From the NCBI GenBank assembly GCA_003117195.1, contig BDSI01000135.1, positions 124,001 to 188,000 on the forward strand: a stretch of DNA of 64,000 nt, read 5' to 3'. The translations under genes and the position numbers were made by a program. The notes beneath the pieces were generated by a model. It saw nothing but the letters and a program-made list of their open reading frames with translations. It searched no databases and was not told the origin of the DNA. Shown here piece by piece: positions 26,084-58,800 of this stretch. The DNA is from Eudorina sp. 2006-703-Eu-15 (lineage: Eukaryota; Chlorophyta; Chlorophyceae; Chlamydomonadales; Volvocaceae). Position 1 is the first letter of the stretch; the number at the start of each line of letters is the position of its first letter.

Positions 26084-27112
26084 TCAACTTACCTTAGCCG
26101 TGGCCCGTAACCGAGCTTCCTCCAGCAGGGGTTTCATATCAGGAGTAAAATTTCGCGCAGGTTCCCAGCTATTGTGCTCAGAGGAATACCCAGCCCATTT
26201 GACGAGGTATTCGTGCACAGTGCGCTTACGTCCGCTCTTACCCACCCGTCGCGCGCGGTAGTCCAGGATGCGCTCAACAGCATAGGTGGTTTGCTTGCCC
26301 TTAAGCCAGTCAACAGGCCCAGGCTCCGTCACAGGCGGAGTGTCAGTAGAATCAGGTTCAGGATCAGAGCCACGGTACGGCCGAACCAGAGACACATGAA
26401 ACGTAGGGTGAATGCGCATGTCAGATGGTAGCTGAAGTTCAACGGCGACAGATCCCACCATGCGTGCGACAGGATATGGACCCACCCAGCGTGGTAACAG
26501 CTTACGTGACCCTTCAGCCAAGGAACGCAGATTCTTGGTGCTCAGCATGACCAACTGTCCCTTGCGGAAGGTGACGTCCCGTTTAGATTTGTTGTAGTAG
26601 TCAGCCGTCCGTTGCTGTGCAGCATCCAAGCAAGATCTGGCATCTGCTATCCGGGACACAAACGACTTGACAAAAACCTTAGCAGCAGGTACGTTTACAT
26701 CCAACTCACGCCACACAGGCAGAGCCGGGTTATAACCGTAATTCAGGAAGAAAGGACTCTTGCCAGTCGAACGGTTCACAGCATTGTTGATAGCAAACTC
26801 AGCAGCAGTCAGGTAGGTGTCCCAGGCAGATGGTGTGCGGCCAGCGAAGTTACGGAGCATGTCGCCCAGAACGCGATTCACACGTTCAGTCTGGCCATCA
26901 GATTGTGGATGGTATGCAGTGGACAGATTCACACGCATCCCAACCAAAACACCCAGCGCGGCCCAAAACTTACTCGCAAACTGAGTACCACGATCAGACA
27001 CAACGCTCTTTGGCACGCCGTGCAATCGTACGACGTTATCAAAGAACAGTCGTGCAGTGTCTTCAGCAGTGCAAGCAGTCGTGGTAGGGGCAAGATGCAC
27101 CATCTTCGTCAA
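26084..27112 (-). CDS. Pol, C-terminal part: integrase core and chromodomain
   Basis: 342-codon frame. It starts inside the integrase catalytic core at TKMVHLAPTT. The second catalytic Asp is in VSDRGTQFASKFW and the Glu in QSDGQTERVNRVL. The integrase C-terminal region and its GPY/F motif (WVGPYPVARMV) follow. The last ~70 residues are a chromodomain (YAVERILDYR, EYLVKWAGYSSEHNSWEP), which in chromoviruses directs insertion to marked chromatin. The frame is shifted relative to the upstream pol frame, so it has no start of its own; the listed Met is internal to the domain. Confidence 0.93.
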   Translation of the reverse strand: MTKMVHLAPTTTACTAEDTARLFFDNVVRLHGVPKSVVSDRGTQFASKFWAALGVLVGMRVNLSTAYHPQSDGQTERVNRVLGDMLRNFAGRTPSAWDTYLTAAEFAINNAVNRSTGKSPFFLNYGYNPALPVWRELDVNVPAAKVFVKSFVSRIADARSCLDAAQQRTADYYNKSKRDVTFRKGQLVMLSTKNLRSLAEGSRKLLPRWVGPYPVARMVGSVAVELQLPSDMRIHPTFHVSLVRPYRGSDPEPDSTDTPPVTEPGPVDWLKGKQTTYAVERILDYRARRVGKSGRKRTVHEYLVKWAGYSSEHNSWEPARNFTPDMKPLLEEARLRATAKVS

Positions 27113-30100: not shown

Positions 30101-30150
30101 GAAACAGCAGACCCAGGCGACTCCCCCTTAGCATCAACCTGGGCAACCTC
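27109..30150 (-). CDS. Pol: protease, reverse transcriptase, RNase H, integrase N-terminus
   Basis: The frame is open from the codon after the gag UAG (30150) to a stop at 27109. Domains from the N-terminus: aspartic protease with ALADTGASDDF (about residue 215); reverse transcriptase with KDGGLRMCIDYRGLN and the catalytic YLDD (about residues 420-585); RNase H with VTDASLHGTGAVLL and TDHKPLTFLQ; the HHCC integrase zinc finger (CDLCQRNKSL); and the first integrase Asp in SLDFVVSLPK. It then leaves the integrase frame and ends at LLIA. There is no ATG at the start; the part downstream of 30090 begins with TTG. Expression as a gag-pol fusion is therefore expected. Confidence 0.95.
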   Translation of the reverse strand, partial: EVAQVDAKGESPGSAVSRGALPDLSAFRAARAIVPDVLRQVEGVVGRRFSLDARTARAGFDTFCNLFAPCVPSLASVDLGGHTIWFTPSSLRELQLQVARYRSCKRQRPDTAAGVLLPEFMSRKAASLLAGFKRVLQFRPGTVLFNGVDVAGRPTPLPGFPYAAEVWYEAPRKGPVVPDEGDPHISALLSPGAAALTGSGVPLVSISAAGHRMTALADTGASDDFISASEVERLGLRPATSARSHVTLADGGTQAILGRVTLRLAVGPLRFTAQPYVLPKLTDVATYILGSSTLSQFGAVVDYPARALRLRKGTLSCKVPFCSGDRACAEPPCVNFAAAAICRHEEPEAIGRKAAVRLLRKGAHALLVRPKLQLNAAVQPVAPTDPDLQALLEEYADVFQEIPGLPPMRPVDHTIPLVPGAQPVSRPMYRLSPLELDEVKRQVTDLLKKGMIRPSTSPYSAPILFVGKKDGGLRMCIDYRGLNSVTVKNRYPLPRVDDLLDKLRGAAYFSSIDLQQGYNQIRIAESDIPKTAFRTPFGHYEYTVLSFGLVNAPATFQAVMDRTFRQYIDKFVVCYLDDILVFSMTREEHLQHLRLVFDILRREQLYAKRSKCHWAEPQVEYLGHIVSKDGVRMDPRKSAVVRDWPTPTNLQELRKFLGLTNYFRKFIERYSVIAAPLTNLTRKGAFTSADAWTPECQKAFDTLKRAVADDIILRFPDYSLPFRVEVVTDASLHGTGAVLLQEGRPIAFTSKKFSGAETRYTTGEQELLAVLHALKEWRCYLEGRPFVLKTDHKPLTFLQGVPSLNRRQARWMEYLARFNFNWEYLSGSMNIADALSRHPSLHAAILSVATRRQSAASQPFAASDFASRLKRAYVTDPWFSDPVNTGHLRRENGLWVRPEGSYKQVVVPNDDSLRRELLSRFHEGPLAGHPGYVRLLDLIRRQFWWPRLAKDVENYVQSCDLCQRNKSLSGKPHGHLQPLPVPNAPWESVSLDFVVSLPKTEGDTTPYSYLLIA

Positions 30151-31605
30151 CTAAGCCTTTTGCCCCCCCTTCAGCAGCGGGCAAGTGTCCGCACGGTGGG
30201 CGTTGGAGGCGCATCGGAGGCACAAGCCTTCACCCTTGCGGTAGTTGTACTCCGCCCGAGTGCAGCAGAATTTGTCTAACCACTCCTGATCACGCCGGTT
30301 GTTGCGTCGGGGCCGCTTCGACCGCGGCTGCGCCCAACCGTCGTCCTTCCCCTTGTGGCTTGCGCGAGCCGCGCCGCCCGACTGCTGCTTCCCGCGCCGC
30401 CCTCCATCGCCGCCTTTCGCCGCCCCGGTGGCGGCGGCGGCGGCGGTCGGTGCGCGGCGCTTGGCGCCAGCCGCCGGCGGGACGTCCTCCGCGTCCGACA
30501 GGTCGGACATGTCCTGCGCAGTCAGGGCATGCAAGCGAACAGAGGACCGGGCTTGTTGCTCAGCAAGCCGCTTATGCTCCAGCCGCCGCTCCATGCCGAA
30601 AGCGAACGTGAGCAGGTCCTGGAAGGTCGGGAAGGTCTGTCCGAGAGAATCAGATGCGCAATCACCAGCGAGCTCAGCAGTCAAGCCCTTGTGAAACCAG
30701 AAGCGCTTCTCGGAATCAGAGACATCAGGAATGGCAGAAATGATAGCCTCAAAGCGGCTATGGTATGCTGCGACCTTATCACCAGAACGCATGCGGTGCT
30801 TGCCAGATGCAAGCTTGTGCCGGGCCTCATCCTCAGCAGACAGGATGCGCGGGGCGAAACGGCTAAGCAAAGCGGTCAGAAGTTCTTCCGAGGTGAAGGT
30901 TTCCTTTGCGGTGGTCCAGGAGTCATGCCACGCCTTCGCCGCACCCTCAAGGGCAGTGGCCAGAAAAAGGCAGCGCATGTTGTCCAGATGACCTCCCTTC
31001 ACAACCGCAAAGTAGTTCCTAGCATCCCGTACGAACGCCCGCGTGCGTGCCGCAATTTTGACAGGATCCGCATGCTTAAGGTCAGCAGGCAAGGACAGTT
31101 TCGGCACAGATATGGTAATTTTCAGTACCTCATCGTCGGCGCCCTTGTCGGTCGAGGCCGGAGCCCCCTGACCGGCCGAGCCACCCGCACCAGCCGCAGC
31201 CCCGTTATCGTTGACTGCATGACCAGACCCCAGTACAGCGGGCGTACCGTCAACGGAGTGAACAGGCTCAGGGACTGCAGCAGTGGGAGCTGGGGCAGGC
31301 ACAGGCACGTTAGAGGCACCAGGAGGAACAGGGAAAGGCTGCGCAGCGGCGCCGAAAATGGCCGGTGCAGCAGCGTTAAAAACAGGCACGGCATTCGCAG
31401 CAGGTACAGGAGCAGCAGGCGGGACCGGACCCCAGCGGACCGGCGGACCCCAACGGTTCACCCGCTGCGGAGCTGCATTCGGAACAGCAGCAGGCACCTG
31501 ACCAGGCAGTTGTCCCCAACCCAGATAAGGAACACTGCCGAAAAACGGTGCAATGCCGGCCCAGACAGGAGGATACGCAACGTTCGGGTAGTTCGGTGCG
31601 AACAT
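30151..31605 (-). CDS. Gag polyprotein with CCHC zinc knuckle
   Basis: 484 aa from ATG at 31605 to a UAG at 30151-30153. The N-terminal third is rich in Pro, Ala and Val and is followed by a capsid-like helical region (FLATALEGAAKAWHDSW, a motif family common to plant gypsy Gag). A basic stretch KRPRRNNRRD precedes one CX2CX4HX4C knuckle (CLRCASNAHRADTC) close to the C-terminus. Gag forms the particle and binds RNA. Confidence 0.95.
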   Translation of the reverse strand: MFAPNYPNVAYPPVWAGIAPFFGSVPYLGWGQLPGQVPAAVPNAAPQRVNRWGPPVRWGPVPPAAPVPAANAVPVFNAAAPAIFGAAAQPFPVPPGASNVPVPAPAPTAAVPEPVHSVDGTPAVLGSGHAVNDNGAAAGAGGSAGQGAPASTDKGADDEVLKITISVPKLSLPADLKHADPVKIAARTRAFVRDARNYFAVVKGGHLDNMRCLFLATALEGAAKAWHDSWTTAKETFTSEELLTALLSRFAPRILSAEDEARHKLASGKHRMRSGDKVAAYHSRFEAIISAIPDVSDSEKRFWFHKGLTAELAGDCASDSLGQTFPTFQDLLTFAFGMERRLEHKRLAEQQARSSVRLHALTAQDMSDLSDAEDVPPAAGAKRRAPTAAAAATGAAKGGDGGRRGKQQSGGAARASHKGKDDGWAQPRSKRPRRNNRRDQEWLDKFCCTRAEYNYRKGEGLCLRCASNAHRADTCPLLKGGQKA

Positions 31606-32027
31606 CGTAACAGAGATGCGGACCGAACGTCACAGATAACCGAACGCGCAACTAAACAAAGAATTCAGAACCTACTCAATCCAGTGGCCTTATCCACTTC
31701 GGCCAAGAAACGGACGAGGTGGTGCCGCAGGTTGCGAAGGCCGATGCGCAGCTTGCGCGGCGCGACAGCCGACTTTGCCGAACCTGCGGTCACTCAACAG
31801 CTAAGCCACACAGGCAACCTAACAAGGCAATATCGCAAGCTAGTAATGCAAATTACAGACCCTCGTCAGCGGCATCCAGGAGTGCAGCGGCGAGGTCGGC
31901 CATCGGTAGCTCGCGGTCGGGCTGTGTATCCGCTTCCATATGGTTATAAGAAGTAAGTATGAGAACGCGTAGATCGAGATATGAGCGCAACGAGACGCCC
32001 CAGAAGGGACCGTCTCGATACCAAACT
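31606..32027 (-). other. Leader between 5' LTR and gag
   Basis: 422 bases from the LTR to the gag ATG. It carries the primer binding site at its start and would hold packaging signals. No separate gene is recognised. Confidence 0.7.
32006..32023 (-). promoter_or_regulatory. Putative primer binding site
   Basis: The plus strand reads GGGACCGTCTCGATACCA, a possible tRNA 3' end including CCA, starting 4 bases inside the 5' LTR. The matching tRNA could not be named; initiator-Met tRNAs of plants also end ATACCA. Confidence 0.6.
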
Positions 32028-37500: not shown

Positions 37501-40500
37501 TCAACGACTGCGCACGTGCTTGAACCAGCACCGGTTTCCCCGGGAACATTTGCCGGTGTCGGCGAACTGGAAGCATGGCTTGTTGATTTGGTGCCGGAAA
37601 TCGCAGTCATTGCCGTCCCGGCAATACCCCCTCTTAAAATACCTGCACAGGGGGACGGTCTCGTGCAGATAAGGGCAATCGTCGCCGTCTTTGCAGTAGC
37701 CCCTTTTGAAGAATTTGCAGAGGGGGGGTTCGTCGTCGTCTGAGTCATCGTCGTCCTCTAGGCTCCCATCATGTAGCCGGAGCCGAAAGGAGGCCGGGGG
37801 GGAAGGTGTCGCCGGCACTGGGGACGACTTTGCCGGGCTGCTGCCGCTTGGCCCCGCAGTGCTGCCGCTCGATTGCTGGCGGCCAGCGGCCGCCGCTTCA
37901 TCCGCAAGTGCTGCAGGAGGCGAGGCAGCAGGTAAACGGTTGCTGGTTCCACTGTCTGCTATGTTTCCATTGAGGGGGTTATTATCAGGCGCAGTTTCAC
38001 TGCCGTCTAAAATGGTCCCGCCAGATGCACTGCGGCTGCTGGCTGTTCTTGCAGCAAGCTGCGTCGACAGTGCGCGCGTCATCGTCGTCGTCGTCGGCAG
38101 CAGTGGGCCGCACGAAGTTGGAGAGGCTGCTGTCGTGGAAGGCAGCCCACCGGCAGCTCCGGGGGCAAGATTCGTGCCCGACTCATCAGCCTCGTTCAGC
38201 CTCTCCTCCATACCCGTGGCCCGCCGTATATAGCTGTAGTAGTCCTGCACCGCTGGTGAGGTCTGCGCTGTCTCCGCGGTGGGCGGCGGCGGTGGTGGGG
38301 TTGAGGGGCCAGCGGCAGCAGAGTCGTTGCATGTGGGTCCAGGGGCTCCTTCGTCTTGTATAGATCGCAGTGCGTCCACGATCCGCGCGCGCAGCCTATC
38401 GATCTGCATTAAGGCTGGCGAGTCAACGTCCAGCCCCAGGGCCCTGCACGTCTCGCCGCAGGTGTGCGACTTGAAGAAATCCTCCATGCCTTGCTGTGAG
38501 GTCGATCGGGAAATAAACCGGAAGGGCATGCATGTAATGCGTGCGTGATCAGGGGGGAGAATGCAAGTACGGCAGTTGGCCAGGGCATACAGGACGCGGA
38601 CTACTTAGAAACGCACGCACGTTTTTGGAACTTCAGAAATATGTATGGCACTGCTAGCTACGCTTACCTCTGGTTAGGCGAATGAGTGGTCTGTGTATTG
38701 TGTAATCGATCATGGCTGGAAACTGTAGGCCAACCGGCTGCTACACAACGGATCGAACATGCTTATGATGACCTTCATACGACGAGGCTCGCTCGTTCAA
38801 TTTACTTGTTTGAATGCGTTTCGAACGCCAGACGCCCATGCATGTTACAACCGTGGACAAGGTGGACCCTTAGCCCCGACTGGGCGTCCAACGGGCCCAA
38901 CCACTGACAAGCTATTTTACAAAAAAGGCAGGAAACACTTCGTACTTACCAGCTGGCGGTCTTTGTTGGAATCATCCAGCACGTTTTTGGCCTGGCAGTG
39001 GATGCAGGGGTCGGTGAGCCGCACCTCCCGGGCGTCCTTGTTGAGCCAGCCCTGAACGTCCGTCACCATCAGGCGCCCGCCCGTCACGTGGTAGGTCCAG
39101 TGCGGGAAGGCGTCACACACCGGCAGGAAGTCGGCCTGGGGAGCTGGCGACGGTGCAACCACAACGAACAGCAAAACAATTACTCATCACTATCTACGTA
39201 TTATCATAAAGAAAGGTCTAGAAGCATTGCAGCAGGGTTGATTTCGTGTGTATTGCAGCTTGCTAAAGGGGGCAATCTGTAACACGGCGCGGTCAAAGGC
39301 CTCTCGAGATGCTGTATGTGCAGGGTCATTTGTAGGGACATATACTGTAACCCAGCGTTACACAATCCGACCAGCAGTTTCATTTGTACGTAGTTGTCTA
39401 TCCGAAAATAAGTAAAACAAAATAGGGAAAAAACAGCATGCTAACTGAATGGGCATTATTACACTAAACAATTAAACTCACACGCATTCAAGAATTTCAT
39501 GATGCAAAGGAAAACGAGGGGTGGAAACAGATACATGCGTGTACGTGCGGCGGGTCGTCCGAGGTCGTTCCTGACGATTTACCTACGGCTCCTCCGTTGT
39601 CATTGTACTTCACTGGCTTGCCCAATACAAATTCTTCTGCAAACCTGCATGCATGTATGTATTGATCAGGGCGAACTGATCTTGACAATGTATCGATAGG
39701 TTATACTACCATGTTGGTGTATAAATTGTGTGTTTGATGGCTTGATGTAGGGCGGTGCATTAACAGCCAGCCATGCATAACCCATAATGTTATATATAAT
39801 ATCATATATGTTATTTAAGATTATATATAATATTGCGATATACACTATATATTAATTATTGCAATACTATTCAGTCACTTATTAAGAGTGGTTCCGCCCA
39901 TTTAGGATTACCGCACGTGGATTATTAGATAGGGTATATATTAAGTCAATGTGAATCCACCGCTAATCTAGCTATCTTTTTATTTCCATAGTCGTCGATT
40001 AAGAACGGATTGCTACAACAATTGCTTCAAGCTGTATCGCAAGTTTGAAGCGTGAGAGCGGAATGCTATCATATTTACAAGCATTATTCAAAAGACCACC
40101 ACGAACGAAGAACATCAAGGCAACGGCCGCCACGTGGTACACTAAGACCCTCTATCAGCAGTCCGATTGAGCGAGGCAAGCGAGGCATACCAAGCAGACA
40201 TCTATTACTTATCTCGGGCTGAGGGCCGAGGGGGTGTCCGTGGCGCTCGCGCGGATACATGTAATTAGGAATAAAGAATTATGCCCGGTCTGAAACTCTT
40301 CATATCTGAGTGTATATAAAACTAAGTATGCATTCCGTCCCCGGCACGCAGAAGCGGAAAGAATCACTGACCAGCCGCCGGTACTGCTGTGCGTGACCCT
40401 TTGCTAATGAAGAGATTGAATCACTGGCTTGAACGTAAACATACATCTGTGAATGGAATATTATATATGTGTTGCACCCACCAGTTCCGTGGCGACGTGC

Positions 40501-43500
40501 GGCTGCCGCCGTTGTAAGCGGCATGATGTCGCAGCAGGCTGACGTCGAGGTACTTCAGCTTCAGCTCACCCGGACACACCTCTTGAACACATCGGTTGTA
40601 CTCCTCTGCTAGGAATCCAGCAATAGTCTGGGCTTTGTGCAGCAGCTTTAGCCGATTCACGCTCAGCATCCGATGGCCCTCCAGGTGAAACTTCTTCAGC
40701 GCCTACATAACACAGTCGAAGATACGCGTCGCCTCACAATCACCGTGCGTTGTTTCGTTCTTACATAAGGCGTGCATCTCCGTTCTACGTACCTTCCGCT
40801 CCATCTTTTACGTCATAAATGGCTAATTACACAGGCTGCACTGCATTTGGAATGGTTTGGGTATAAGAAAGCTTTACTTCTGGACCTCTAAGCCCAAGCG
40901 TGTGTTAAGGGGACCGCCGATTGAAGGGTTGGGAGTTGACATTCGTTGGTCACCAGTATTTTGTTCACGCAGGTATCCGCCTGCGGCCCCTATCCGTGTT
41001 ACCAGGCCCCCGAAACCGTCTCCTGGTCCGTCTCCTGGTGTGTGGCCGGACCCATTGGCCCGACCCGCTTGACGCGCACATCTCGGGCTATCCTTTAACC
41101 GTGGCTCAAGGCCATTTACACCGGGGGCGGACTCGGACCCGACTGAAGAGCCGGGCTGTCCAAACGGGACTCCCCATTTCTCAACCATTTTGTCCCGACC
41201 CGGATCGAACCGGTGACCTCATGGTCACAGACTCGATGCCTTAGGGAATGGCCAAGTTCGGTGGATATGGATTGGGTATACTCTCTACCCAAAAACGGCG
41301 GCTTCGGTGAAAACCGAAATCAATGCGAGCGTGGCTGCAGCCTAGATAGCTAGTTCGTTGGGTCCTGCCTGCAGGGGTCGCTCTAGTTGCTCAGGGGTTG
41401 CTTGATAAATAAATGTGTGATACTCTGCATGCTGCGTCGAGGGCCTGCACGTCAATGGGTCATTCGTTAGTGTGTGTAACAATCCACTCACATGCAATTG
41501 AAACCTGCTGGGATCGCCGCTTGTGATGTTGCGGGCCAGGTATACGTAGCGTTCGGCGCCCCGGTCAAAGGGATCCGGCAAGATCTTGTACGTGCGTATC
41601 GGATACACCGGTGTTCGGGTATCAAGCGTCACAATTCCGCCGTCCACTTGCTGGCACAGGTCGTCAATGTCTTCCGGAGGCTCCAGCATACTGCACATAC
41701 GAATACATACATACATACATACATACAGGCGATCACACAGGGTCTTACTCTGTGTGGCGGCCTTTGATTCGGGCATGTATGTATATATGTATGTATGTTT
41801 GTATCCTGCATGCGCCTGCGCTCGTGCAGCATATATACATTTTTGCGCGTTTATCTTGCTAGCTGACATGACGGCATGTGTGGAGATCGATGGGGATGGT
41901 TCTAAGTATTTTAAGCTTATGTACATGTACACATGTGTCTCGAACAGCAAAGAGCATATTTCTGTAGCACTAGCGAGCTCAAATAATGAATCTGTCGTTT
42001 CTTCGTTGCATCATGGCACGCACGCCGCACGCTGTGTCGATGGGTAGCCATGGGCGGATACATGGATGAAGGGTCGAATGCGCAACTCAAAAACGATTAG
42101 GGAAGTCAACTTACGGTGGAAGAAGACGCTGGGTCTGTAATTCATGTAAGCCGTGGGCTATGCACCGTCATCCATGCGTAAATTGTTTCAGTAGTTTCAG
42201 TCGGTCGTTGTGAGATTTCGGAATCGTTTTTTCACCAGACAGCTCTGATTGATAGTCCAAAGTTTTATTTCACACTCGTTGGTTTGCAGCGAGACACATA
42301 TGCCTCCGTCACTCGCTCTATATATACATGCACGTTATTACGTACCTGACTTCGCAAACCGTGGTATTTGTGATGGCGTCAAAGCGAGCGCGGACCTCTT
42401 GCATGAAACGTTGACCGTCGTCACTCTGCGCCCATTCCTGGAATGCGGTGCGAGGAGCGGGGATCATCGTGGTGCGTCTGGCAGCAGCCGCCACGGGAGC
42501 GGCGTCCTCTGCATTTGCGGAAGGTTCTGCTGCCGCCATGGCAGCAGCCGGATGCGACTGCTGCTGGTGGTCGCTGGCAGCCCTGGTCAGCGTAACCGTA
42601 GCTCCGGACACCGAGTCCATGCGCAGCTGGTCCATGCCCTCGATGATGGGGACCAGCGCCGTTTCCCGTTGGAACGTCCCGCCCGTATTCAGGGTGCCCA
42701 GTGTTCTTGACGCCGATGCTGCTACACCAAGCGTCCGCGATGCCGCCCTACAAGTAAACAACAATGCAAGAAAATTCGATCTGGACGAACGAAGTTGGCA
42801 TCACTGACTAAGGCTTTTCGTTGGATGGAACGCCCCATCCATGACTAGCAGCACGCACACATCATGTCTGTTGTGCACATGCACGCGACATTCCGTATAT
42901 TCCGTATGTGCAGGTGGCGTCCTTACGTACCCGACCATGTCATTGACCAAACGGGCTACGTTGGCTCCGATGTCCACTTCCTCGACCCAGTTGTCCGTGT
43001 TGGCGTGGCTGAGGATTTCATGCTGAATAACTCTGCGAAGCGGGATCTGCTTGGCAATGTCTTTCAGGGCCTTGACGGTCTTCGCTGTGATCGACACTGG
43101 TATGCCTTCATAATTGCTGTTTCGCACAGTGACTGCGTAGTACCTGCACGTCACAAATGACGTACCAAGGCAACGTGAAAGGGCACATCAACGAAGAATG
43201 TCATTTAGAGTCGTCTGGACTTCTTCACAGTGGACGGGCTGCTTTCCTTTCACATCACTGCGCATGGTCGCAGCAGGCGTCTGTAGGTCGAGGTACGTAC
43301 TTGCGGGTCAAAATATATAATAATAATTAGTACGCCGGCCGTAGCCTGGCGTGTATTAAAAGGGTGGGGAACTCAGCAGGGGTGGCGTATTTAGCGTATT
43401 CACCCCCGTATGCATGCCCACACAACCGGGGGAGCCACGCACTTGCGGGTCATGCATTTGTTTATTTAATTCCCATGTCGGGCCGGTGGTGGTGCCGCAC

Positions 43501-46500
43501 CGACCCTTAATTGCTACGCATTCCTTAATTCGTTTATCAAAACTGTATTTATCTGTTTATTAACGTTTCTTCTAATATTATTTTTTGGGGTGTGGGCAAG
43601 AGTATATTGCTTCACACATATAACGGGGCGGAATAGGCGGAAGGTAGGTGGTTGGGCATGCCCACCCCAGCGCTGCTGCTCCTACAGCCACCGAGGGCTA
43701 ACTACTATCGTGATATCGGCCTTCAGTTTGCACCTGTCCGTCTGGGCGATCTTTATTTCTCGCTACTGTAGACCTACCGTCGTGCTCTTAGCTTCTATCT
43801 ATCTGTGCACGATGTACGAAGTGAATTAAAGAAGTATGGCAGTTTTTTTATGCTGATGACCAGGTTTGTGTCGGTTGCAGTGTCTTACTTGACGACGTTG
43901 AGGTGATTCTTGAGTTTGTCCAGCGCCTCGGCGATCTCCTCGGCGGGGTCCCTGCGGCCCTCTGGCGGACTCTCCCAGAAGTTGTCACCACCATATTTGG
44001 CAAAATACGGCGACCCCTCATAGAAAACGTCATTGAAATCCTTGCCGTGGCCAGGGGCGTCAAAGATGTGGAAGAGGATATTGGATGAGGTCTTGTTCCA
44101 TCCGTCCAGCGTGCACACCTGCACGCAGTTGCCCGTACATACAGCCAGTGACATGCTTGTCCAAAAATTACAACAAACACTATAGTTATAGCTATCGTTA
44201 CAGCATCACCCACCGTGCACACGCACCTGCAATTGCACATGCAGCAATTTGCACGCATACATGTCCGTTTGCCTCTATTAGGGATGGTAAACACTGGCTG
44301 GGATTACACTGAAGCTAGCCGCGTGATAACAATAACTATAATTACGTATTAGGTATACTTGCTTGTGTGTAGATAGAGAGAGATAGATATATAGCAATTG
44401 CGCGGAGCCTACCCCAAGCAAGAGCTCCATGCATACCTTCAGCAATGCACCAGCTATGTCCTCGGGGTGATCATCCCCGCTGTTCGCCCGGAAAAAATCC
44501 TCGCTCATAAATGCCGCCACCTCAGCGGCATCCATGTCAAAGTCCTTCACCACGAACTGCCTCCTCGAGTTAGCATCACGGTAACCGACCACCGCGAAAT
44601 GGAACTTCTCCTTCATGGACGGATACCTTCAAAAACATGATTCACGATCAGCATTTAGCAGGGTGGTAACAGGCAGTTTTTTGGCTGAATCATGCATGCA
44701 AATAGGACTTTCGGGTTTGGAGTGAAGAAATCGACCCTGGACTTTGTACAGTTTCCGTCCCTCAATAATCCTGGCGTGCCTTGAGCAAGTATTTTTTGTT
44801 AGTGGGGATTTTTGAGTGGGATTTTTCGTTACAAGTTATGAATTTTCAGGGATTATTTTCGCGAACTATTACGTTGCTGCTACCCCCCCTATACGCGATA
44901 GCATCCCCGTCAAGCTAGTGCCACAATTGATGCAATGTTGGGTTCAATCTGCAATGATAGCCATGCCGCTGCTATCGGGATCCTCGTCCTCGTAGTCCTC
45001 GGCCTCACCCCCGCTGCTGTCTTCGTCCTCTATTACGTTACTGAGCTTACGACGCTTCCGTGCACCAAATTCTACCGGTATGTATTGAATCGACCAATAC
45101 GTACGTCGGGAAACATTCCTGACATATGTACAGCAGGGCCACTGTTAGCACAGCCGCTACAGTGCGGCTGTACAGGGATTCACGAGCATCACCGGTGCCA
45201 AGTGTGCAATTATAGCAGCTCAATCTTATAAGGAAGGAAGCACGTAATGAAGTTATGAATGTGTTGCGTACGCACGCACCTTTTTTGCAGCTCGACCAGC
45301 AGCTGCATTTTCAGCTTGGTCTTTATTTCGTCAATCACAGGCTGCATGCTCTGCGTAATATCCAGCAGCATCACAATGCCAATCTTGCCAAGGCTCTCCT
45401 CGAACTCAATGCTCTGCCGCACGGTATTGATGGTGTGCTGGACCTGCTCGAGGGGTGAGGCACGCATGTTGTAGGCGTTCGCCTTGTGCTTCGCCAAAAA
45501 TGTCGGCCATGATTCCGCCCAGCTGACCAAGTCGTGTCCATCGCCCTGGAGCCATGCCGGATGTGTAGTTCCCGTGCCCTCAATGTACATTTGGCAGACC
45601 TGCAGGCCGTACTGCTGAACCGCCGTGCGAACAGTCTCCAGATGGTCCGAATCACCTGAACGTACACAGGGTTTAAAGGCTCAACTATTTTATGAATGTG
45701 ATGAATGTTCACGGTTGTCATATATTGGCTTGGGAGCTAACCCTTGTACATAGATAGTTCGCTAACAATACGTCGTAGTGGATGGGTGCTACTGCATGCG
45801 TGAGTGCTGGTGTAGCTGATGGTGAGCGTGCGTGGAACTCTCGCATTGGAGGATTACGTACGCGGTACACTCCTCCTCAATAGTAGAGGAGTGCTTCAGT
45901 CCTGAATGGGCAGGGTCACTGGCCCGGTCATCAGCGCAATCAGCGCTCAACCCAGAGCGACCGGGAGAGGGATATAACGGCACATGTATATAGCCGCACA
46001 TATATATACGCACGTGAGGTCGCTCGTGACCAGACACTTGAATGATACTCAATATGCAATTGTTATATCATTACATCAACCACTATATCATTACATCATT
46101 ACGGTATATCAGTAGAAATCATTATGTCGTTATGAATGAGTGAACGTGACAGCGGACGTCCCTGAACCTGAACCCCATGAGGATCAACGGTGTAACCAGG
46201 GCAAGTAAGCCCCAGCAGGCCCCACCGTCAAGGCGGCAAGACACCTCCACACCTCAACGCCGCAAATGAAGAACACGTCGCGCCATGACCCCAGCCAGAC
46301 AGACACGGAAGCAAGCAGAGGCGCACAGCGGGGCAACACTCGCTACCAAGGGACAGGCACAGCAAAGGGCGGGATCCCCAGAAGTGATTAGAGCCACGCA
46401 CGGGAAGCCCCACGCCGATTACGCCGACAATATCCAGCGCGCGACCGCTAGTGGAGCAACCTACCCGCATCCAAACGAAACACCGTGACCAATCAACAAA

Positions 46501-49500
46501 ATACTAACGGAAGTCCGGCCCCTTACAGCGCAGCAGCTGAGGGCAGGCCAGGTCCCCGACGAGGGCCGCCACGGGCAAGTGAACCCGTAGCAAAGACAGA
46601 GGACGGGACCCTCGCTTGTGCCTCATCAGCCCTCAGGAGCGGGCCCTGCACATCGCAAGACTTCCCCCGACATTCTCGGTGGGAAAATGAGCATAAGGAG
46701 GCCTTTTGGCGCCTTACAGTCGATGGCGTCCCGTTGTTGGGCAATTCCCATATGCGACACGCGAGGGTGACGCGGTGTGGATGCGGGGGATACCCAGCGG
46801 AAGGCGGGGGGTCAGAGACACCCCGACAGCACCATTTCTGGTCATGCCGAGTGGCCCAGGCGGTGGTGGGTCAGTTGGAAGCGCGCCTAGGGGCACGGAT
46901 ACGGAGGCCGCAGGTCTGGCTGGCGGAACCCCCGCCACCCGTGGAGCAAGTTGTTTGGGATGTGGTGGTGTTGGCCGCGATTGCGGCCATGGAGACTGGT
47001 CGCCGATTCATGGCAGCCACCCTGCGGCGGTCAGCACCTGGTCAGGGTCAGACGATCCGGCCGGGACCGATATTGGCAGAACAAGGGGAGCGGCGCGCAA
47101 TCGCTGACTTTTGGGGGCGCCTTCACGGGTTCGCCCAGTTGGGGCTCCCGAGACGGGGTTGGAGCTCAGTGGGCCCCTTCCACCCTTTCTTGAAAGTGGC
47201 GGGGGAGTCCTGCGATGTGCGGGACCTGCTCCTGAAGAAGGATGAGGCGCGGGTTCCCCGCCCGCTGTCTGTTTTTCGTCGGGCTCTCCGAACCGGGGTT
47301 CAAGTTGGGGACCGGGCCTACCCTCAGTTTGGGGTGGAGGTTGGGCTCCCGTTGGCATTTTGGTGTTTTGGCCAAGTTATTTCTTATGATGCGGGTTACC
47401 CCACTAGCGGTCGCTGGGCAGTGTCACGAGCCAGGCGTGGGCCTTCCAAGACCTCGAGAGGGTGCTGCGTTGGGTGCCTCAGAGGTGGTGGTAGCTGGGT
47501 AATGGGGTGCCTGTGTGGGCGACCTCCCCTGTGCTTGGCTTTATCCACTTCTGGGGATTATGCCCGCTGCTGTGCCTATCCCTTTGGTAGTGTTGCCCCG
47601 CTGCGCGCCTCTGCTTGCTTCGGTGTCTGACTGGTTGGGGTTATGGCCCGGTGTGTTTTCTTTGGGTGCGGCGTTGTGGTGTGGAGGTGACCTGCCGCCT
47701 TGGCGGTGGGGCCTACTGGGGCTTGCTCTGGTATACACCGATGATCCCGTTGGGGTCCGCTGTAACATTCATTCATTCATTCTCGAAAAAAGGTGGAATA
47801 ATGGCCCCACCGAGGTCCACCCACGTTCTATCATTATATCATTGTATCGGTCGCCCGGGACACGGGCCCACCTTGTAACGGTTACCTTATATTACATATA
47901 TAATTAATATATCATTACAGTGATATAATGATTTAGACCATTATTATATCATACATTATTATACAATGATTAATACCATTATCATATCATTCCATGCATA
48001 TCATCATTTTACCAGTATATAATTCATGCATTACCATTATGCCATCATCATGACCTTTGTAATATCATTTGTAATATGATTGTCATTTGCATTATTATAT
48101 TATCGTTATTATATTCTTTTTATATTTTCAAATTTCTTTCATTTTTCGTTAATTTTAGTTTTAGTGTCGTTAGTAGTACTTTGATCGTTGGTATGGTAGG
48201 CGGGCCTGCCGGGCTTACGACTAACAACAGCACTTGCCTGCTTACCTGAGATCAGCACAACTACGTCTCCTCTCCTCGCACTGCTTTCACAGAAGCGAAG
48301 GATCTGGGCATTGATGTGATTGTCGGCCTCATGCTGGCTAGGCTTGCCCCCGCTCTTGCCACAGCACCTGTGATTGATAGTGTACTTGCTATGGAGCTGG
48401 CATATGTCCGATTTGCGCGCCTTGCTGTAGTGGGCATTGAGTGTGTCGTCTGAGATGAAGAGATGCAGCGCAAAATCTTGTTGCCTCACACCGGCGTCCC
48501 GCATGAAGATGTTGGACAGCAAGTCGTAATGCTGCTGCGCAGTGAGCTTGTCGGGAACGTTAATGTTCGGGCTCCTATTATACTCGGGGCACCACCCACC
48601 CGTAAGGGGGCAGTTCTCCATGTCCCAAAAGACCTGCGTTCCATGCGCAGGAACAACGAAATATATATTCGATGCACGCATGCATGAATGCATAGGAATG
48701 AGGTCACAGCACAGCAGGCACACACGCAAGTATTGATGTAACAGGTTCATTCGGCTGCTGGTGGTAGGTATGCAACATGGCGTGAAGTGGCTGGGTTCCG
48801 GGCCGGTAACCAGCCTGGTGACCGGCCGGGTTAGCCGGGTACCGGTCGAGTACGTAGCTACGGGTAGGCTATCTACAAATAAACAGTGTATTGCCAGCCA
48901 TCCGGTTGGTAAATAACCTACGTGCATACTGACAATCGATTACCGAGTATACCGAGCCGGTCGCTAGCTGTTCGATATCCCACCCGGTAAGTATTTTCCA
49001 TATATAAATGAAGGGATACTTAAGACAGTCAAGTGACGGAGACTACGTATCTGCTGAAATTTTGTAGATTTGGCACAACCAACGCGACTGTATGTCTGGG
49101 TAGGTACGACAGAGCAGTGACAATAATCAACCAACAGCAACGTAACACCAACACCAATGCCCTGCACAACACCAAGGTCTCGGGTACTTGACACCGCCAG
49201 TTGCCCTGATGCATGTATGTGTATTCATTGTCGGATAGATATGCAAGGCTCCGTACATACGGACTGGATGTACTGGATGGAGCGGAACTAGCAGTAATGT
49301 AGGTGACGAGTGTGCACACAAAGGTAGCTAGCAAGGATAGTAATAAGTTTGGCTTCGCAAGCCTGGATGCTGTCCTTGAAACATAAGCCCGAGTAAAATC
49401 CAGCAGTTGGCGTCTGAGGGAGCATACATTGGCAGGGTTGACTACGTACATCAGCTAATAATAACTGCTAACTACGCAATCGCAATGAGCCTCATACATC

Positions 49501-49893
49501 GTCTCTGACCCCCTAACACACGCCAGGGTGATGCCCGGCGTAATGTTATTAATATTATTATTACTAACTACGCCATCCATCCCATCCACCCCCTTATCAA
49601 CAAAACATGTCAGGCTCCGGCCGCCGGCATGCAATCATTGTCATTATACTATTTATTTAATTCTTTCAGTGGGTATATATATATGTATTATGTAAATGTT
49701 TATTTGCAGTGATCCCATCAGCTTACCGCCAGTTTCTTGTTCTTGAACCCGTTTGTTGGACACGGCCAGTGCGCGCGGTTGCTGTCTGTCCATGCCTTTA
49801 AATCTGCTTCAGAAACCGCCTCGCTGATATTTATGAGTGGCCTTTGCCGGGTTGGAGTTCCGTCGACGTTGCATTGGCCATTGGCTTGACTGG
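37501..49893 (-). CDS. NYN - vWFA - alpha-kinase - CCCH zinc-finger fusion protein, at least 12 exons
   Basis: Exons: 49893-49727, 48633-48246, 45655-45280, 44626-44437, 44118-43889, 43143-42931, 42747-42346, 41690-41492, 40702-40482, 39644-39583, 39143-38950, 38493-37501. Every intron phase matches, giving at least 1211 aa; the 5' end is not found. NYN RNase domain, about residues 55-240, with acidic residues in VFWDMENCP, EADNHINAQIL and LISGDSDH; the last motif is split by the 48246/45655 junction. vWFA domain, about 270-470, with MIDAS-like DITQS, VVGYRDA and FDAPGHGKDF. Alpha-kinase, about 665-900: DRGAERYVYLARN, LKKF, GGRLMVTDVQGW, LTDPCIH and zinc-ligand HTCGETC. A low-complexity linker leads to three CCCH fingers (CX7-8CX5CX3H) at the C-terminus. 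vWFA plus alpha-kinase resembles Dictyostelium VwkA; NYN plus CCCH resembles Regnase. RNA cleavage and phosphorylation by one protein is inferred, not shown. Confidence 0.88.
39278..39362. mobile_element. 85-bp TGTAAC...GTTACA element with 5-bp duplication
   Basis: Ends TGTAAC and GTTACA are flanked by perfect CAATC repeats (39273-39277 and 39363-39367). It lies in an intron of the NYN-kinase gene. A related copy is at 34464-34548. It has the same structural class as the 91/93-bp elements: TG...CA ends and a 5-bp duplication. Confidence 0.8.
40866..41266 (-). mobile_element. tRNA-derived SINE, 401 bp
   Basis: On the minus strand the element opens with a tRNA-like head. An A-box-like TGGCCATTCCCTAAGGC is followed about 40 bases later by a perfect B box GGTTCGATCC within CCGGTTCGATCCGG. 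It is flanked by ATGGTTTGGGTATA (40852-40865) and ATGGATTGGGTATA (41267-41280), a 14-bp target duplication with one mismatch. It sits in the NYN-kinase intron between 41492 and 40702. There is no coding capacity; it would be mobilised by a LINE. Confidence 0.82.
46134..46470 (-). mobile_element. LINE 3' end, minus orientation
   Basis: Reversed, it matches the 3' UTR at 47500-47795 and 52890-53200 (shared words such as GTTGCCCCGCTG, CTTGCTTC and GTGTCTGTCTGG) and ends in a CATT-type tail at 46134. It lies in an intron of the NYN-kinase gene, tail outward, nearly abutting the plus-strand LINE. Confidence 0.7.
46485..47795 (+). mobile_element. 5'-truncated LINE (L1-like): ORF2 C-terminus and 3' UTR
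   Basis: An open frame 46485-47630 begins inside ORF2. It carries KEAFWRLTVDGVPLLGNSHM and then the C-terminal zinc motif CGCGGYP...HHFWSCRVAQAVV typical of algal L1-like elements. The natural protein probably ends before the GC-rich 3' UTR, although the frame stays open. The 3' end is GGGGTCCGCTGTAACATTCA plus CATT repeats at about 47770-47790. It is in the NYN-kinase intron 48245-45656. Confidence 0.72.
47880..48130. repeat. AT-rich degenerate ATCATT/TATATCAT repeats
   Basis: Imperfect tandem words such as ATATCATTA and CATTATTATA. Similar sequence lies at 46050-46130 on the far side of the LINE pair, so the LINEs may have split one AT-rich tract. Confidence 0.6.
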
Positions 49894-52889
49894 CTGGTTA
49901 AGGCGCTCTCGCCGTGTCGGGCCGCCGCTGGGCGCCTATTATTAATTGCTGTATGCAAGCATGGCATCAACAACACAACATATGCAATAATGCATGGTCG
50001 GTGCTTAGTGAGTGTCGGCATCAACTATTAACTGTTGTCCACGGTGAACTTAACGTCATCATTGGTGCGCGCTCGCGCATGTAACATGCACATCGATGTA
50101 CGTTGCTTGTAGTTATCATCTGCGCTGCGCAGCACGCGTGCTAATGTATGGTTGTATTACTACTTTACCTTGCTTGATTGCGAGAAGCGACAATCGGAGA
50201 AGATACGTAGATGTCCATGGGATGGACAATGTCGCAGCTAAAGGCACAGAGTGTTTTGCCCGAGAGATGATGGAAATGAATAATGAAGCTTCCTCGCATG
50301 CACTTTCGAAGGCAGACGACGAACTACGTGCGCGCGCTTGGCTCGCAGCAACATGTGCTAGCTGAAACCATTACAAAAAGAAATATATAGGAAACTACTT
50401 GCGCCGCATGTTTCTTATGAAGCGCAACAAAAGCGTATCCAATTTTCCGTACTTCGGAGCAAGTTCGATACGAGTACAGAAGCATCTTCGTTCACCGCCA
50501 GGGAGGGTAGGGTCGAGTGGCCTCATCAGGCCCGCACCTCTGCGTAATATGCGTAACGACCAACCAAACAACCTCACGTAAGCAGCTTTGGTTCAGGTGG
50601 CAGCTCGCTTTTGAATAATATTTAATGGGGATGTACATATATCCCCATTATATATATACCCATTTTATTGAAATCCGGATTGGTACTATATTATACCTGC
50701 GGTCTGCGGACAACTGTGAAACAATATGGCATTTCTGCACAAATATATATGGCATTTCTGCATGCGTGCATGGCATGTTTTGCATGTAATACCCGCAAAC
50801 ATATTATTAATGCTGCGTTGTCAGCTGAAGTCATCAGCTGCCAACGAAGCAGCAGCTTCTCTGCACCTGCTTACGGATATATACGAAAAGGTAGGGCGTA
50901 CCTGCCCGATCTGCCACCCCCTTGATACATACCCTAGCCATGCTAGGGCGTCCCTATTATCATTATTATTATTACGAAAAGGGCTGATCTAAATCAAATA
51001 AAGTGCTGATGATCCTTATCGCTTTGACTCAAAGCTCCTTCTTTTAAAAATCCCTTGTGCGCAGACCCCAACAGCAGCAGGGCAAGGCAGCAGGGCTCGG
51101 ATCAATGTTATTAGTTAAATAAAAAGGCTCTGATGAGATTATGCGTAATCACGTGATCATCACACATGACCGTGCGTCAATTCTATTTAGTAGCAGCAGC
51201 GAGCTTAAGGTGCAACGGTACCTTGATAAGGATGTATATATGAGCTTCATTTCGTATCTATATATCTGCTTGCGTTCACCGAGGGATGGGTACAATATCG
51301 ATGCCACTTGAATAGGCCCGTCGTGTGGGATTTCGTTTCGGACACTTCCGTGGGGACCTACGTGGTAGTAACTTAGAGCAGCTGCAACACCATACACACT
51401 GTTTCTATGCTTACTGGGAAGCCCGAGCGAAACCCATCTGGAAGCAAGTCAAATTAGGAGTCCATGGTTTCGGGCCGTCCTATCTAAGCCCATAGAAACG
51501 GACCTACCCGTACTGACGCTAATTATTTGCGACGCTAATTATTTGCGAGGCCCGTAATACTTGTTTTTTAAAATGAAATTTTAACTTATTTTGAATTAAT
51601 TTTAAATTGAATGCGAGGAGGTCGGAGGTCGGAGTTTTTTCAGAAACGTTCAAAGTTTGCGAACTCGTTCGCGTCGTTCAGTCCAGCGTCATCAGCGAGT
51701 GAAGTGCGCATCAGCCTTCCTCGCCCCGTGCAGAGGCCAGTCCTCCCACCCTCTTCCTGTGCCGTCCTGCCCGCCTGCCGCGGCCCCGTGCCGGCTGAGA
51801 GGGGCCGTGCGTCACCCATCGGCGCACCGCCCGTCGCCGCCTCTCCGCGCCGACTACATACCCCGACCTACCTGTCACATCCTCCACAGCCCCGGTCCCC
51901 ATTCCGCGGCGACCACCATGCAACGGCTGATACAATTATCAAAGTATGTGTATGCTGTCGGTTGTTCGGGTTATTTGAGGGTTTTAGGGTTTGTTGCAAT
52001 TGTATTCGTTACAAGTAAGGCAGGTGGACCAGAGCGAGTCCCGACCGGGTGTTCCAGAGGGCCATGTCGTTGTCATCAGCAGGGGTCATCGGCAGCAGGG
52101 GCCAGCCGGGGTTCCTTGCTTGTCAGTCGGGGTTTGTTGCCAGCAGCCTGCCATCCAGCAGCCAGACGTGCGGTGCAGTCATCATTGACGTGCATGTATG
52201 TATATGTATTAACCCTTCGACGGACGATGGAGCTGCACTGCAGGGCATTCGATCGCAGTCATCATCGTCCATACACATACACGCCGCAGCAGGTGCTCAA
52301 TCGGCGCATATGCATTCCGTCGCATGGAACGTACGTACAAACTGATTTCGTCATCTGCTAGGCCCAATTCTAGGCCGGGATGGATGTGCTCTGGCAGGAG
52401 CCGCGCACATGTATGCAAGTCATCACCATAACATATGGTATGTACAAGAGTATGTAGTTCACTCAAGCAGGCAGGAGATCAATGCCCTACCAACTCATAG
52501 GGGGTCTGACAGGCTCTGACAGGCTTGCCTGTCAGGAAATGTTAGCCTGACAGCCTTAGCCAACATTTGCGCCGCTGTTATTGGCTGTTGAAATGACACC
52601 GTCTGGGCTCTGACAGTTCCCAGCAATGTCAGTGACGGTCGTGATAACTTGGCTGTGACAGGCTGTTAGTGGCTGTTTGGGCGGTGTCCAACACTGTTAC
52701 CCTCAGTGCAGAAGGTATGATGCCTAATGTTGACGTCTAACAACAACAGGAGTGTATGTACTCGTTAGTGTTGGCGGAGGCTATCCGGTATATCATTCTA
52801 TGGGGATGAGGAGCCGGTTTTCTTTTCGAGGACAATGCACACAGCTGTCATTTTACTCACTGCGCTGGGTGAAATGTAACACGAAGCCT
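49894..52889. other. Unresolved region upstream of the NYN-kinase gene
   Basis: It should contain the 5' exons and promoter of that gene. A minus-strand frame at 50395-50577 (ERRCFCTRIELAPKYGKLDT) could be such an exon or another gene's end. A plus-strand frame at 50096-50365 (DVHGMDNVAAKGTECFAREM) and a minus-strand frame at 52209-52466 (LLPEHIHPGLELGLADDEIS) also look protein-like. At 51918 a plus-strand ATG in GACCACCATG follows a GC-rich leader and is followed 26 bases later by a GTATGT donor, a possible gene start. None could be extended. Confidence 0.3.
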
Positions 52890-55500: not shown

Positions 55501-55896
55501 AGCTGGCCTAGTCGTCCGGCTCGCAGCGGTTGCATCGGATATATGCGCGAGATGCAGTTAAGGGGTCCACTTGGTGGTGCTGCTGGATGGCCAGGATTTG
55601 TGGGTTCAACTCCCGCAAGCACCATATCAGCCAAGCTGCCAGCGGAACTGACTTGCTGCCAAAGCCGGCAGGGCCCATGCCGCGTGACTTGACTGAGTTG
55701 AGGGGAGGAGTCACATGAGGCTTTTTGCGAGAAGTGACGGAACCGAACAGCTTCTTGATACCCGCCTCTGTCGGATATTGTGCACTGGGACTCGGTGGGC
55801 TACAACTTTGTTCTAAATTGGATCGAGCACGGCTAAAGTACATTACGAGATCGGGGGTCATGAAGGATTACGTATTCTTCTCATCATCTCATCAGG

Positions 55897-58800
55897 GCCC
55901 TAGGGTTAAACCCATCCGGAACAGCCTTGCGGCACCGTCTAGATGGGCGCCCAAACGAATCTGGACGCGCCGTCGCACCAGGAAACTCCCATCAAAGGGT
56001 GTCAGCCGTCAGGGGAAAGGGCAGCGCGAGATTCGGTGAACAGGGAGTCGCGCATGGCCCGAATCACAATCCTGGAAACGGCCCTAGGGTTAAACCCATC
56101 CGGAACAGCCTTGCGGCACCGTCTAGATGGGCGCCCAAACGAATCTGGACGCGCCGTCGCACCAGGAAACTCCCATCAAAGGGTGTCAGCCGTCAGGGGA
56201 AAGGGCAGCGCGAGATTCGGCGAACAGGGAGTCGCGCATGGCCCGAATCACGATCCTGGAAACGGCCCTAGCGTTAAACCCATCCGGAACAGCCTTGCGG
56301 CACCGTCTAGATGGGCGCCCAAACGAATCTGGACGCGCCGTCGCACCAGGAAACTCCCATCAAAGGGTGTCAGCCGTCAGGGGAAAGGGCAGCGCGAGAT
56401 TCGGCGAACAGGGAGTCGCGCATGGCCCGAATCACGATCCTGGAAACGGCCCTAGGGTTAAACCCATCCGGAACAGCCTTGCGGCACCGTCTAGATGGGC
56501 GCCCAAACGAATCTGGACGCGCCGTCGCACCAGGAAACTCCCATCAAAGGGTGTCAGCCGTCAGGGGAAAGGGCAGCGCGAGATTCGGCGAACAGGGAGT
56601 CGCGCATAACCCGAATTACTATCCTGGAAACGGCCCTAGCGTTAAACCCATCCGGAACAGCCTTGCAACACCGTCCAGATGGGCGCCCAAACGAATCTGG
56701 ACGCGCCGTCGCACCAGGAGACTCCCATCAAGGGTACCAGCCGTCATTGGAAAGGGCAGCGCGAGATTCGGTGAACAGGGAGTCGCGCATGGCCCGAATC
56801 ACAATCCTGGAAACGGCCCTAGGGTTAAACCCATCCGGAACAGCCCTGCGGCACCGTCTAGATGGGCACCCAAACGAATCTGGACGCGCCGTCGCACCAG
56901 GAGACTCCCATCAAGGGTACCAGCCGTCATTGGAAAGGGCAGCGTGAGATTCGGTGAACAGGGAGTCGCGCATGGCCCGAATCACAATCCTGGAAACGGT
57001 ACTAGGGTTAAACCCATCCGGAACAGCCTTGCGGCACCGTCCAGATGGGCGCCCAAACGAATCTGGACGCGCCGTCGCACCAGGAGACTCCCATCAAGGG
57101 TGTCAGCCGTCAGGGGAAAGGGCAGCGTGAGATTCGGCGAACAGGGAGTCGCGCATGGCCCGAATCACGATCCTGGAAACGGCCCTAGCGTTAAACCCAT
57201 CCGGAACAGCATTGCAACACCGTCCAGATGGGCGCCCAAACGAATCTGGACGCGCCGTCGCACCAGGAGACTCCCATCAAGGGTGCCAGCCGTCATTGGA
57301 AAGGGCAGCGCGAGATTCGGTGAACAGGGAGTCGCGCATGGCCCGAATCACGATCCTGGAAACGGTACTAGGGTTAAACCCATCCGGAACAGCCTTGCAG
57401 CACCGTCCAGATGGGCGCCCAAACGAATCTGGACGCGCCGTCGCACCAGGAGACTCCCATCAAGGGTGTCAGCCGTCAGGGGAAAGGGCAGCGTGAGATT
57501 CGGCGAACAGGGAGTCGCGCATGGCCCGAATCACGATCCTGGAAACGGCCCTAGCGTTAAACCCATCCGGAACAGCATTGCAACACCGTCCAGATGGGCG
57601 CCCAAACGAATCTGGACGCGCCGTCGCACCAGGAGACTCCCATCAAAGGTGCCAGCCGTCATTGGAAAGGGCAGCGCGAGATTCGGTGAACAGGGAGTCG
57701 CGCATGGCCGGAATCACGATCCTGGAAACGGTACTAGGGTTAAACCCATCCGGAACAGCCTTGCAGCACCGTCCAGATGGGCGCCCAAACGAATCTGGAC
57801 GCGCCGTCGCACCAGGAGACTCCCATCAAGAGTGTCAGCCGTCAGGGGAAAGGGCAGCGTGAGATTCGGCGAACAGGGAGTCGCGCATGGCCCGAATCAC
57901 AATCCTGGAAACGGCCCTAGGGTTAAACCCATCCGGAACAGCCCTGCGGCACCGTCCAGATGGGCGCCCAAACGAATCTGGACGCGCCGTCGCACCAGGA
58001 AACTCCCATCAAAGGGTGTCAGCCGTCAGGGGAAAGCGCAGCGCGAGATTCGGCGAACAGGGAGTCGCGCATGGCCCGAATCACGATCCTGGAAACGGTA
58101 CTAGGGTTAAACCCATCCGGAACAGCCTTGCAGCACCGTCCAGATGGGCGCCCAAACGAATCTGGACGCGCCGTCGCACCAGGAGACTCCCATCAAAGGT
58201 GCCAGCCGTCATTGGAAAGGGCAGCGTGAGATTCGGCGAACAGGGAGTCGCGCATGGCCCGAATCACGATCCTGGAAACGGCCCTAGAGTTAAACCCATC
58301 CGGAACAGCCCTGCGGCACCGTCCAGATGGGCGCCCAAACGAATCTGGACGCGCCGTCGCACCAGGAAACTCCCATCAAAGGGTGTCAGCCGTCAGGGGA
58401 AAGCGCAGCGCGAGATTCGGCGAACAGGGAGTCGCGCATAACCCGAATCACGATCCTGGAAACGGCCCTAGCGTTAAACCCATCCGGAACAGCCTTGCAA
58501 CACCGTCCAGATGGGCGCCCAAACGAATCTGGACGCGCCGTCGCACCAGGAGACTCCCATCAAGGGTGCCAGCCGTCATTGGAAAGGGCAGCGCGAGATT
58601 CGGTGAACAGGGAGTCGCGCATGGCCCGAATCACGATCCTGGAAACGGTACTAGGGTTAAACCCATCCGGAACAGCCTTGCAGCACCGTCCAGATGGGCG
58701 CCCAAACGAATCTGGACGCGCCGTCGCACCAGGAGACTCCCATCAAGAGTGTCAGCCGTCAGGGGAAAGGGCAGCGTGAGATTCGGCGAACAGGGAGTCG

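Follow-up and report, generated by a model that had tools for sequence, protein, structure and literature searches.

A predicted four-module protein from Eudorina combining NYN, vWFA and alpha-kinase domains with CCCH zinc fingers

Introduction

Proteins in which a kinase or kinase-like domain and a ribonuclease (RNase) share one polypeptide chain are rare, and the two examples Ire1 and RNase L govern stress and antiviral responses. In the Regnase/ZC3H12 proteins, a PIN-like nuclease and CCCH zinc fingers are likewise united in one protein. Among the alpha-kinases, VwkA from Dictyostelium carries a vWFA domain upstream of the kinase and is reported to be activated by Ca2+/calmodulin (CaM) (PMC1420674) and regulated by CaM (PMC1420674, PMC7072818). 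The NYN domain of MARF1 is described as a true endoribonuclease, the acidic patch of which is formed by D358, D426, D427 and D452 (PMC6294520). Here we describe a gene from the green alga Eudorina sp. 2006-703-Eu-15 (Volvocaceae) which is predicted to encode an NYN domain, a vWFA domain, an alpha-kinase domain and three CCCH fingers, in this order, in a single protein. The gene is located on the minus strand of contig BDSI01000135.1 (assembly GCA_003117195.1), between 49893 and 37501 of a stretch of 64,000 nucleotides (contig positions 124,001 to 188,000) which is called 'the window' in the following; all coordinates are those of the window unless another contig is named.

Architecture of the gene

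Rebuilding the gene from the window sequence between 36500 and 51500, along with the open frames of both strands, yielded 12 exons which are spliced into a single open frame of 1210 residues up to the stop codon, a minimum for the length of the protein. Each of the 11 introns exhibits a GT donor and an AG acceptor, and the phases are consistent throughout. An earlier, sequence-only reading of this stretch had postulated twelve exons with agreeing phases as well as an intron splitting the motif LISG|DSDH, and both were recovered, the latter as an intron located between 48246 and 45655 which interrupts the glycine codon. Its central claim, namely that the four domains belong to one protein and not to neighbouring genes, is borne out by two bridging exons, by a relative from Pleodorina starrii with the same domain order and, in part, by one from Gonium pectorale, which together are stronger evidence than that reading had offered. 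Specifically, exon 3 (45655-45280) extends in one open frame from the end of the NYN domain (GDSDH...) into the start of the vWFA domain, and exon 12 (38493-37501) extends in one open frame from the zinc core of the kinase, FFKSHTCGETC, to the three CCCH fingers, so that the links between the domains are shown independently of splice predictions. A control performed with the NYN profile yielded 32.6 bits for the spliced form, 16.8 bits when the sequence was ended at exon 2, and 14.4 bits when exon 2 was read into the intron; only the spliced form exceeds the cut-off of 24.2 bits. The Pleodorina relative, being 65% identical, is continuous across 10 of the 11 exon junctions, which is beyond chance. 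We consider it almost certain that the predicted architecture, with NYN, vWFA, alpha-kinase and CCCH fingers in one protein, is real.

Domain content and catalytic residues

Pfam searches of the spliced protein place three of the modules above the respective family cut-offs: (i) Alpha_kinase (PF02816; E 9.1e-31, 107.8 bits, profile positions 2-185 of 185), (ii) zf-CCCH (PF00642; 1.2e-11 in three stretches, and 2e-12 in three stretches for the piece alone), and (iii) NYN (PF01936; 7.4e-6, 27.0 bits, residues 53-208), for which the piece alone covers profile positions 1-125 of 145. The domain searches suggested in the sequence-only reading were thus successful for these three, whereas the vWFA domain falls below the cut-off of the Pfam family VWA_4 and is assigned on other grounds: it matches the vWFA domain of an alpha-kinase from the dinoflagellate Durusdinium trenchii (BLASTP, 2e-9), which itself clears the VWA_4 cut-off with 36.8 bits, and it contains the motifs DxTxS and GYRD.

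Alignment of the kinase to 4kuj and eEF2K reveals that D-x-Q-G, TDPxIH and HxCxxxC are retained. The residues which we take to be catalytic or zinc-binding (lysine, D-x-Q, TDP, and the H/C zinc ligands) are present by alignment to eEF2K, 4kuj and the Durusdinium kinase; one lysine (K724) is invariant in 4/4 sequences compared, including the Durusdinium kinase, and the N-lobe motifs are retained in 4/4 as well. Judged from these residues, the kinase is very probably active. The acidic motifs FWDxEN, HEAD and GDSD of the NYN domain occur in the expected order. When matched by eye and by motif order to the acidic active site described for MARF1 (PMC6294520), D59, D159 and D186 are the counterparts of D358, D426 and D452, and the place of D427 is taken by N160. 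The retained motifs incline us towards an active NYN domain in Eudorina, with distinctly less confidence than for the kinase. Finally, the pattern C-x7/8-C-x5-C-x3-H has three matches in the protein, and the closest match of the fingers in the PDB is CPSF4 (3.9e-9), the kind of protein that binds RNA.

Comparison with described systems

The likeness to Regnase-type RNA-decay factors, which was likewise proposed in the sequence-only reading, holds as a functional comparison but not at the level of the family. PF01936 is the only Pfam family recovered with the NYN piece at E values of 1 or below, so that there is no match to the Zc3h12a type, a separate family which we take to be PF11977; a Regnase-type assignment was thus rejected in favour of the MARF1-like family. 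Furthermore, the three fingers are closest to CPSF4 among PDB sequences, and the vWFA and kinase domains are inserted between nuclease and fingers. In the Eudorina protein, the kinase is an alpha-kinase and the nuclease belongs to the NYN family, and both families differ from those found in Ire1 and RNase L.

VwkA-type kinases are a fitting comparison. The vWFA domain is located upstream of the alpha-kinase in both, and that of Eudorina matches the vWFA domain of Durusdinium. The Durusdinium kinase also exhibits vWFA followed by alpha-kinase, but has PDZ domains and neither NYN nor CCCH in its Pfam list. Neither NYN nor CCCH is mentioned for VwkA in the accessible parts of its descriptions (PMC1420674, PMC7072818), and activation by Ca2+/CaM is reported for VwkA (PMC1420674); for MARF1, no kinase, vWFA or CCCH is named in the accessible part of the article (PMC6294520). 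In the open literature, no report combining an alpha-kinase with an NYN domain was found; an entry in a domain-architecture database may exist. Among the papers listed, nothing turned up on alpha-kinase, NYN and zf-CCCH together, or on such a protein from Chlamydomonas, Gonium or Pleodorina. As far as searched, the architecture is undescribed, and it represents a new combination of known domains and a variant of the VwkA-type kinases.

Relatives in other organisms

Protein database searches, in which 7994, 5680 and 7995 candidates were scored (7994 and 7995 being those sharing most words), identified three distinct proteins at E<=0.001, that is, one each from Pleodorina, Gonium and Durusdinium trenchii, with the alpha-protein kinase of the latter being the sole non-volvocine protein. 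The Pleodorina starrii protein (PLESTM_001387400; hypothetical protein, 990 residues) is 65% identical over 887 aligned columns and exhibits an NYN domain lacking the first strand, followed by vWFA, the kinase and a pair of CCCH fingers; nine of the junctions that it spans are ungapped, and one extra residue is found at 48246/45655. Its NYN domain retains HEAD and GDSD. The Gonium pectorale protein (GPECTOR_9g619; hypothetical protein, 760 residues) is 43% identical and comprises NYN, vWFA and the initial portion of the kinase; the annotated model starts with MENCPL and breaks off within the kinase, where a short tail remains unaligned. A search for the same architecture in other volvocines, which the sequence-only reading had proposed, was thus rewarded in Pleodorina, albeit with two fingers, and only in part in Gonium. 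The predicted layout is complete in Eudorina, two-fingered in Pleodorina and partial in the Gonium model. No Chlamydomonas or Volvox protein was among the matches, and the presence of their proteomes in the database was not checked. Viral contigs (11 pattern matches) and prokaryote genomes (95), screened with two short peptide patterns each, contained no relative detectable by tblastn.

Exon structure and 5' end

The first exon of the sequence-only reading (49727-49893) encodes an N-terminal stretch ending with ...FKNKKLA and including the first residues matched by the NYN profile; it is an open frame with a GT donor in phase 0, and lies outside the alignment of both the Pleodorina and the Gonium relative. 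Exon 2 (48246-48633) contains the bulk of the NYN domain (VFWDMENC, HEADNH and VVVLIS), matches PF01936, and shares 85 of 121 aligned residues with the Pleodorina relative. It is followed by intron 2 (45656-48245; 2.6 kb) and by the bridging exon 3, in which all 126 residues are aligned in both relatives (77 identical in Pleodorina and 57 in Gonium) and in which a MIDAS-like DITQS is located at 45362-45348; on its own, exon 3 has no Pfam match. Exons 4 (44437-44626; VVGYRD) and 5 (43889-44118; FDAPGHG) encode vWFA according to the spliced frame, the alignment to the relatives and the BLASTP match to Durusdinium, and the spliced frame and the relatives likewise identify exon 6 (42931-43143) as the end of the vWFA region and exon 7 (42346-42747) as the linker between vWFA and kinase. 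The alpha-kinase starts in exon 8 (41492-41690; GAERYVYLA loop), as evidenced by Pfam and alignment to the relatives, and continues with the N-lobe and its invariant lysine in exon 9 (40482-40702; ALKKF; aligned to the relatives), exon 10 (39583-39644; FAEEFVLGKPVKYNDNGG), which aligns to the relatives and to PDB and eEF2K kinases, and the catalytic core in exon 11 (38950-39143; VTDVQG and LTDPCIH), which matches PF02816 and aligns to eEF2K and 4kuj. In exon 12, the zinc core (within 38490-38446) is followed by a low-complexity linker, three CCCH fingers and the stop codon. Fingers 1 (37663-37719; residues 1139-1157) and 2 (37591-37647; residues 1163-1181) are of the form C-x7-C-x5-C-x3-H, and finger 3 (37516-37575; residues 1187-1206) is of the form C-x8-C-x5-C-x3-H.

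Exon 1 contains no in-frame ATG and an in-frame TAA at 49900-49898 closes the frame upstream, so that the gene must start further upstream, with the start codon being located before exon 1. Of the extent 49893-37501 proposed in the sequence-only reading, the twelve exons were thus rebuilt but the 5' end was not confirmed. A candidate first coding exon on the minus strand (50169-50218; ATG...AAG|gt), 50 bases in length, would be in phase with an acceptor at 49889 and is incompatible with the previously proposed 49893. In total, 372 combinations are consistent with the frame, and 32 of these have a donor resembling those of the gene; neither relative extends over the exon, which stays only a weak candidate.

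Genomic context

In the Eudorina genome (181 Mb, 3033 contigs), a search with the NYN-vWFA part yielded eight matches, six of them in the gene itself and two weak, vWFA-like ones on contig C17 (E 0.08 and 0.29), where open frames at ~914.2-915.6 kb encode a vWFA domain related to that of the Eudorina protein. Further alpha-kinase places number at least one on C138, four on C144 and one on C14. The four on C144 are located within ~20 kb (C144:225000-245000) and are perhaps a local duplication. In nine loci of 10 kb, comprising the alpha-kinase places and C17, profiles derived from the gene and its relatives detected neither NYN nor CCCH, and vWFA (E<=0.05) only at C17; exons outside these loci would escape such a scan. 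The 20 kb read at C17 contain no match to the profiles for alpha-kinase, NYN and CCCH. Pfam searches of the genome gave 0 matches for PF01936 and one weak match on C17 for VWA_4, and did not detect the gene itself; the domains being split by introns, such searches cannot count genes of this kind, and their results were not used.

Elsewhere in the window, open frames resembling an LTR retrotransposon are present on the minus strand at 26084-31629, and the one that was scanned (27112-30150) has Pfam matches to aspartyl protease, reverse transcriptase (1.6e-37), RNase H and integrase zinc-binding domains. A tandem array with a 183-base unit (28.6 copies, 94% matches) occupies 55896-61128; long stretches of it are open in one frame because 183 is a multiple of three.

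Discussion

Based on knowledge of the respective families, the CCCH fingers would bind RNA and the NYN domain would cut it, as does the NYN domain of MARF1. The vWFA-kinase part may then sense or receive a signal and set activity or target choice, either by autophosphorylation or by phosphorylation of bound RNA-decay partners, akin to the coupling of kinase and RNase in Ire1. The best explanation overall is, to our minds, that an NYN nuclease bound to RNA is linked in cis with a VwkA-like kinase, and on this we are evenly divided; the coupling of kinase and nuclease in cis, taken by itself as an analogy, seems possible but somewhat doubtful. A coupling to mRNA turnover, which the sequence-only reading had proposed, would be plausible. 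A role in calcium signalling would rest on the analogy to VwkA, and among the 10 Pfam families listed for the spliced protein there is no calcium-binding or calmodulin domain.

Several observations weigh against this explanation. The four-module gene model is a prediction from DNA. VWA_4 scores are below the cut-off of 27 bits in the whole protein (17.3 bits, E 0.0037), in the piece (20.6 bits), and in Pleodorina (25.6 bits) and Gonium (24.5 bits), and the vWFA piece has no match in NCBIfam. For the NYN piece, NCBIfam gave one unrelated match far below the cut-off and no NYN family, and sequence searches of the PDB returned no related structure (either 14 sequences, the best at E 0.18, or none). 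Structure prediction for the Pleodorina protein, performed along with that from Gonium, reached a mean pLDDT of 30.1 with 0 of 990 residues at or above 50, and the 590 Foldseek matches obtained with this low-confidence model at E<=10 (none at E<=0.001; many vWFA among the best 50) were not used. Importantly, the NYN domain of Gonium exhibits SGNHGY at the site of SGDSDH in the Eudorina gene, so that the acids of GDSDH are lost, and both annotated relatives begin past the first NYN aspartate. Pfam reports no NYN domain in either model, which fits the absence of the first strand from both and the loss of the acids in Gonium. The Gonium domain is perhaps a dead nuclease, and because of this loss nuclease activity is apparently not general across the relatives, which also weakens a coupling to mRNA turnover as a general rule.

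The main rival explanation is an RNA-associated alpha-kinase. The NYN domain would then have turned into a binding or scaffold module which, together with the fingers, brings the kinase to RNA, with phosphorylation rather than cleavage being the output. This accounts for Gonium better than a nuclease does, agrees with the first aspartate being absent from both relatives' models, and is in line with the retention of the kinase N-lobe motifs in every sequence compared. However, Eudorina retains FWDMEN, HEAD and GDSD, and Pleodorina HEAD and GDSD, and we regard the scaffold as rather unlikely.

A gene in decay, or one no longer expressed, is a far less probable alternative. Inside intron 2, a repeat with inverted arms is found at 46132-47780; its positions 546-1649 (within 5 bases) recur at 30 further places in the genome (23 at 99%, 6 at 98% and 1 at 96% identity; scoring covered 40 of the 1856 candidate places), and its open frame of 392 residues (46452-47630, plus strand) has no Pfam match. 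It looks like a recent and abundant mobile element, the insertion of which might prevent splicing such that the protein is no longer made, and the lack of a start codon in exon 1 would agree with this. On the other hand, the frame of the gene stays open around the repeat, the 1210 codons contain neither stop nor frameshift, 22/22 splice dinucleotides are intact, and the similarity to Pleodorina extends across the junctions, so that decay appears very improbable. That two or three adjacent genes (for NYN, vWFA-kinase and CCCH) were misjoined, as a model built from sequence and a 2.6 kb intron containing a repeat might suggest, is hardly credible considering that exons 3 and 12 each hold both neighbouring domains in frame, which led us to reject separate genes, that NYN drops below its cut-off without exon 3, and that the annotated Pleodorina protein carries the same joins.

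Returning to the RNA-bound NYN nuclease coupled to a VwkA-like kinase, it is tempting to speculate further that the protein represents a new kind of ribonuclease under kinase control, which arose in volvocine algae independently of Ire1 and RNase L and in which an alpha-kinase with a vWFA sensor is placed between an NYN nuclease and CPSF30-like fingers, phosphorylation in cis switches cleavage, and Gonium has lost the ability to cut. We put this joint claim forward tentatively, and consider it less likely to be right than wrong. If true, it would constitute a second, unrelated pairing of kinase and RNase, derived from an alpha-kinase, and would allow a direct test of the repeated emergence of such coupling. 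The colonial algae Pleodorina and Gonium belong to a group in which the origin of multicellularity is studied. Since the proteins differ in the number of fingers (three or two) and in the state of the NYN domain (intact or degenerate), they lend themselves to comparing what each part does. The protein may directly connect a signalling kinase with what becomes of RNA.

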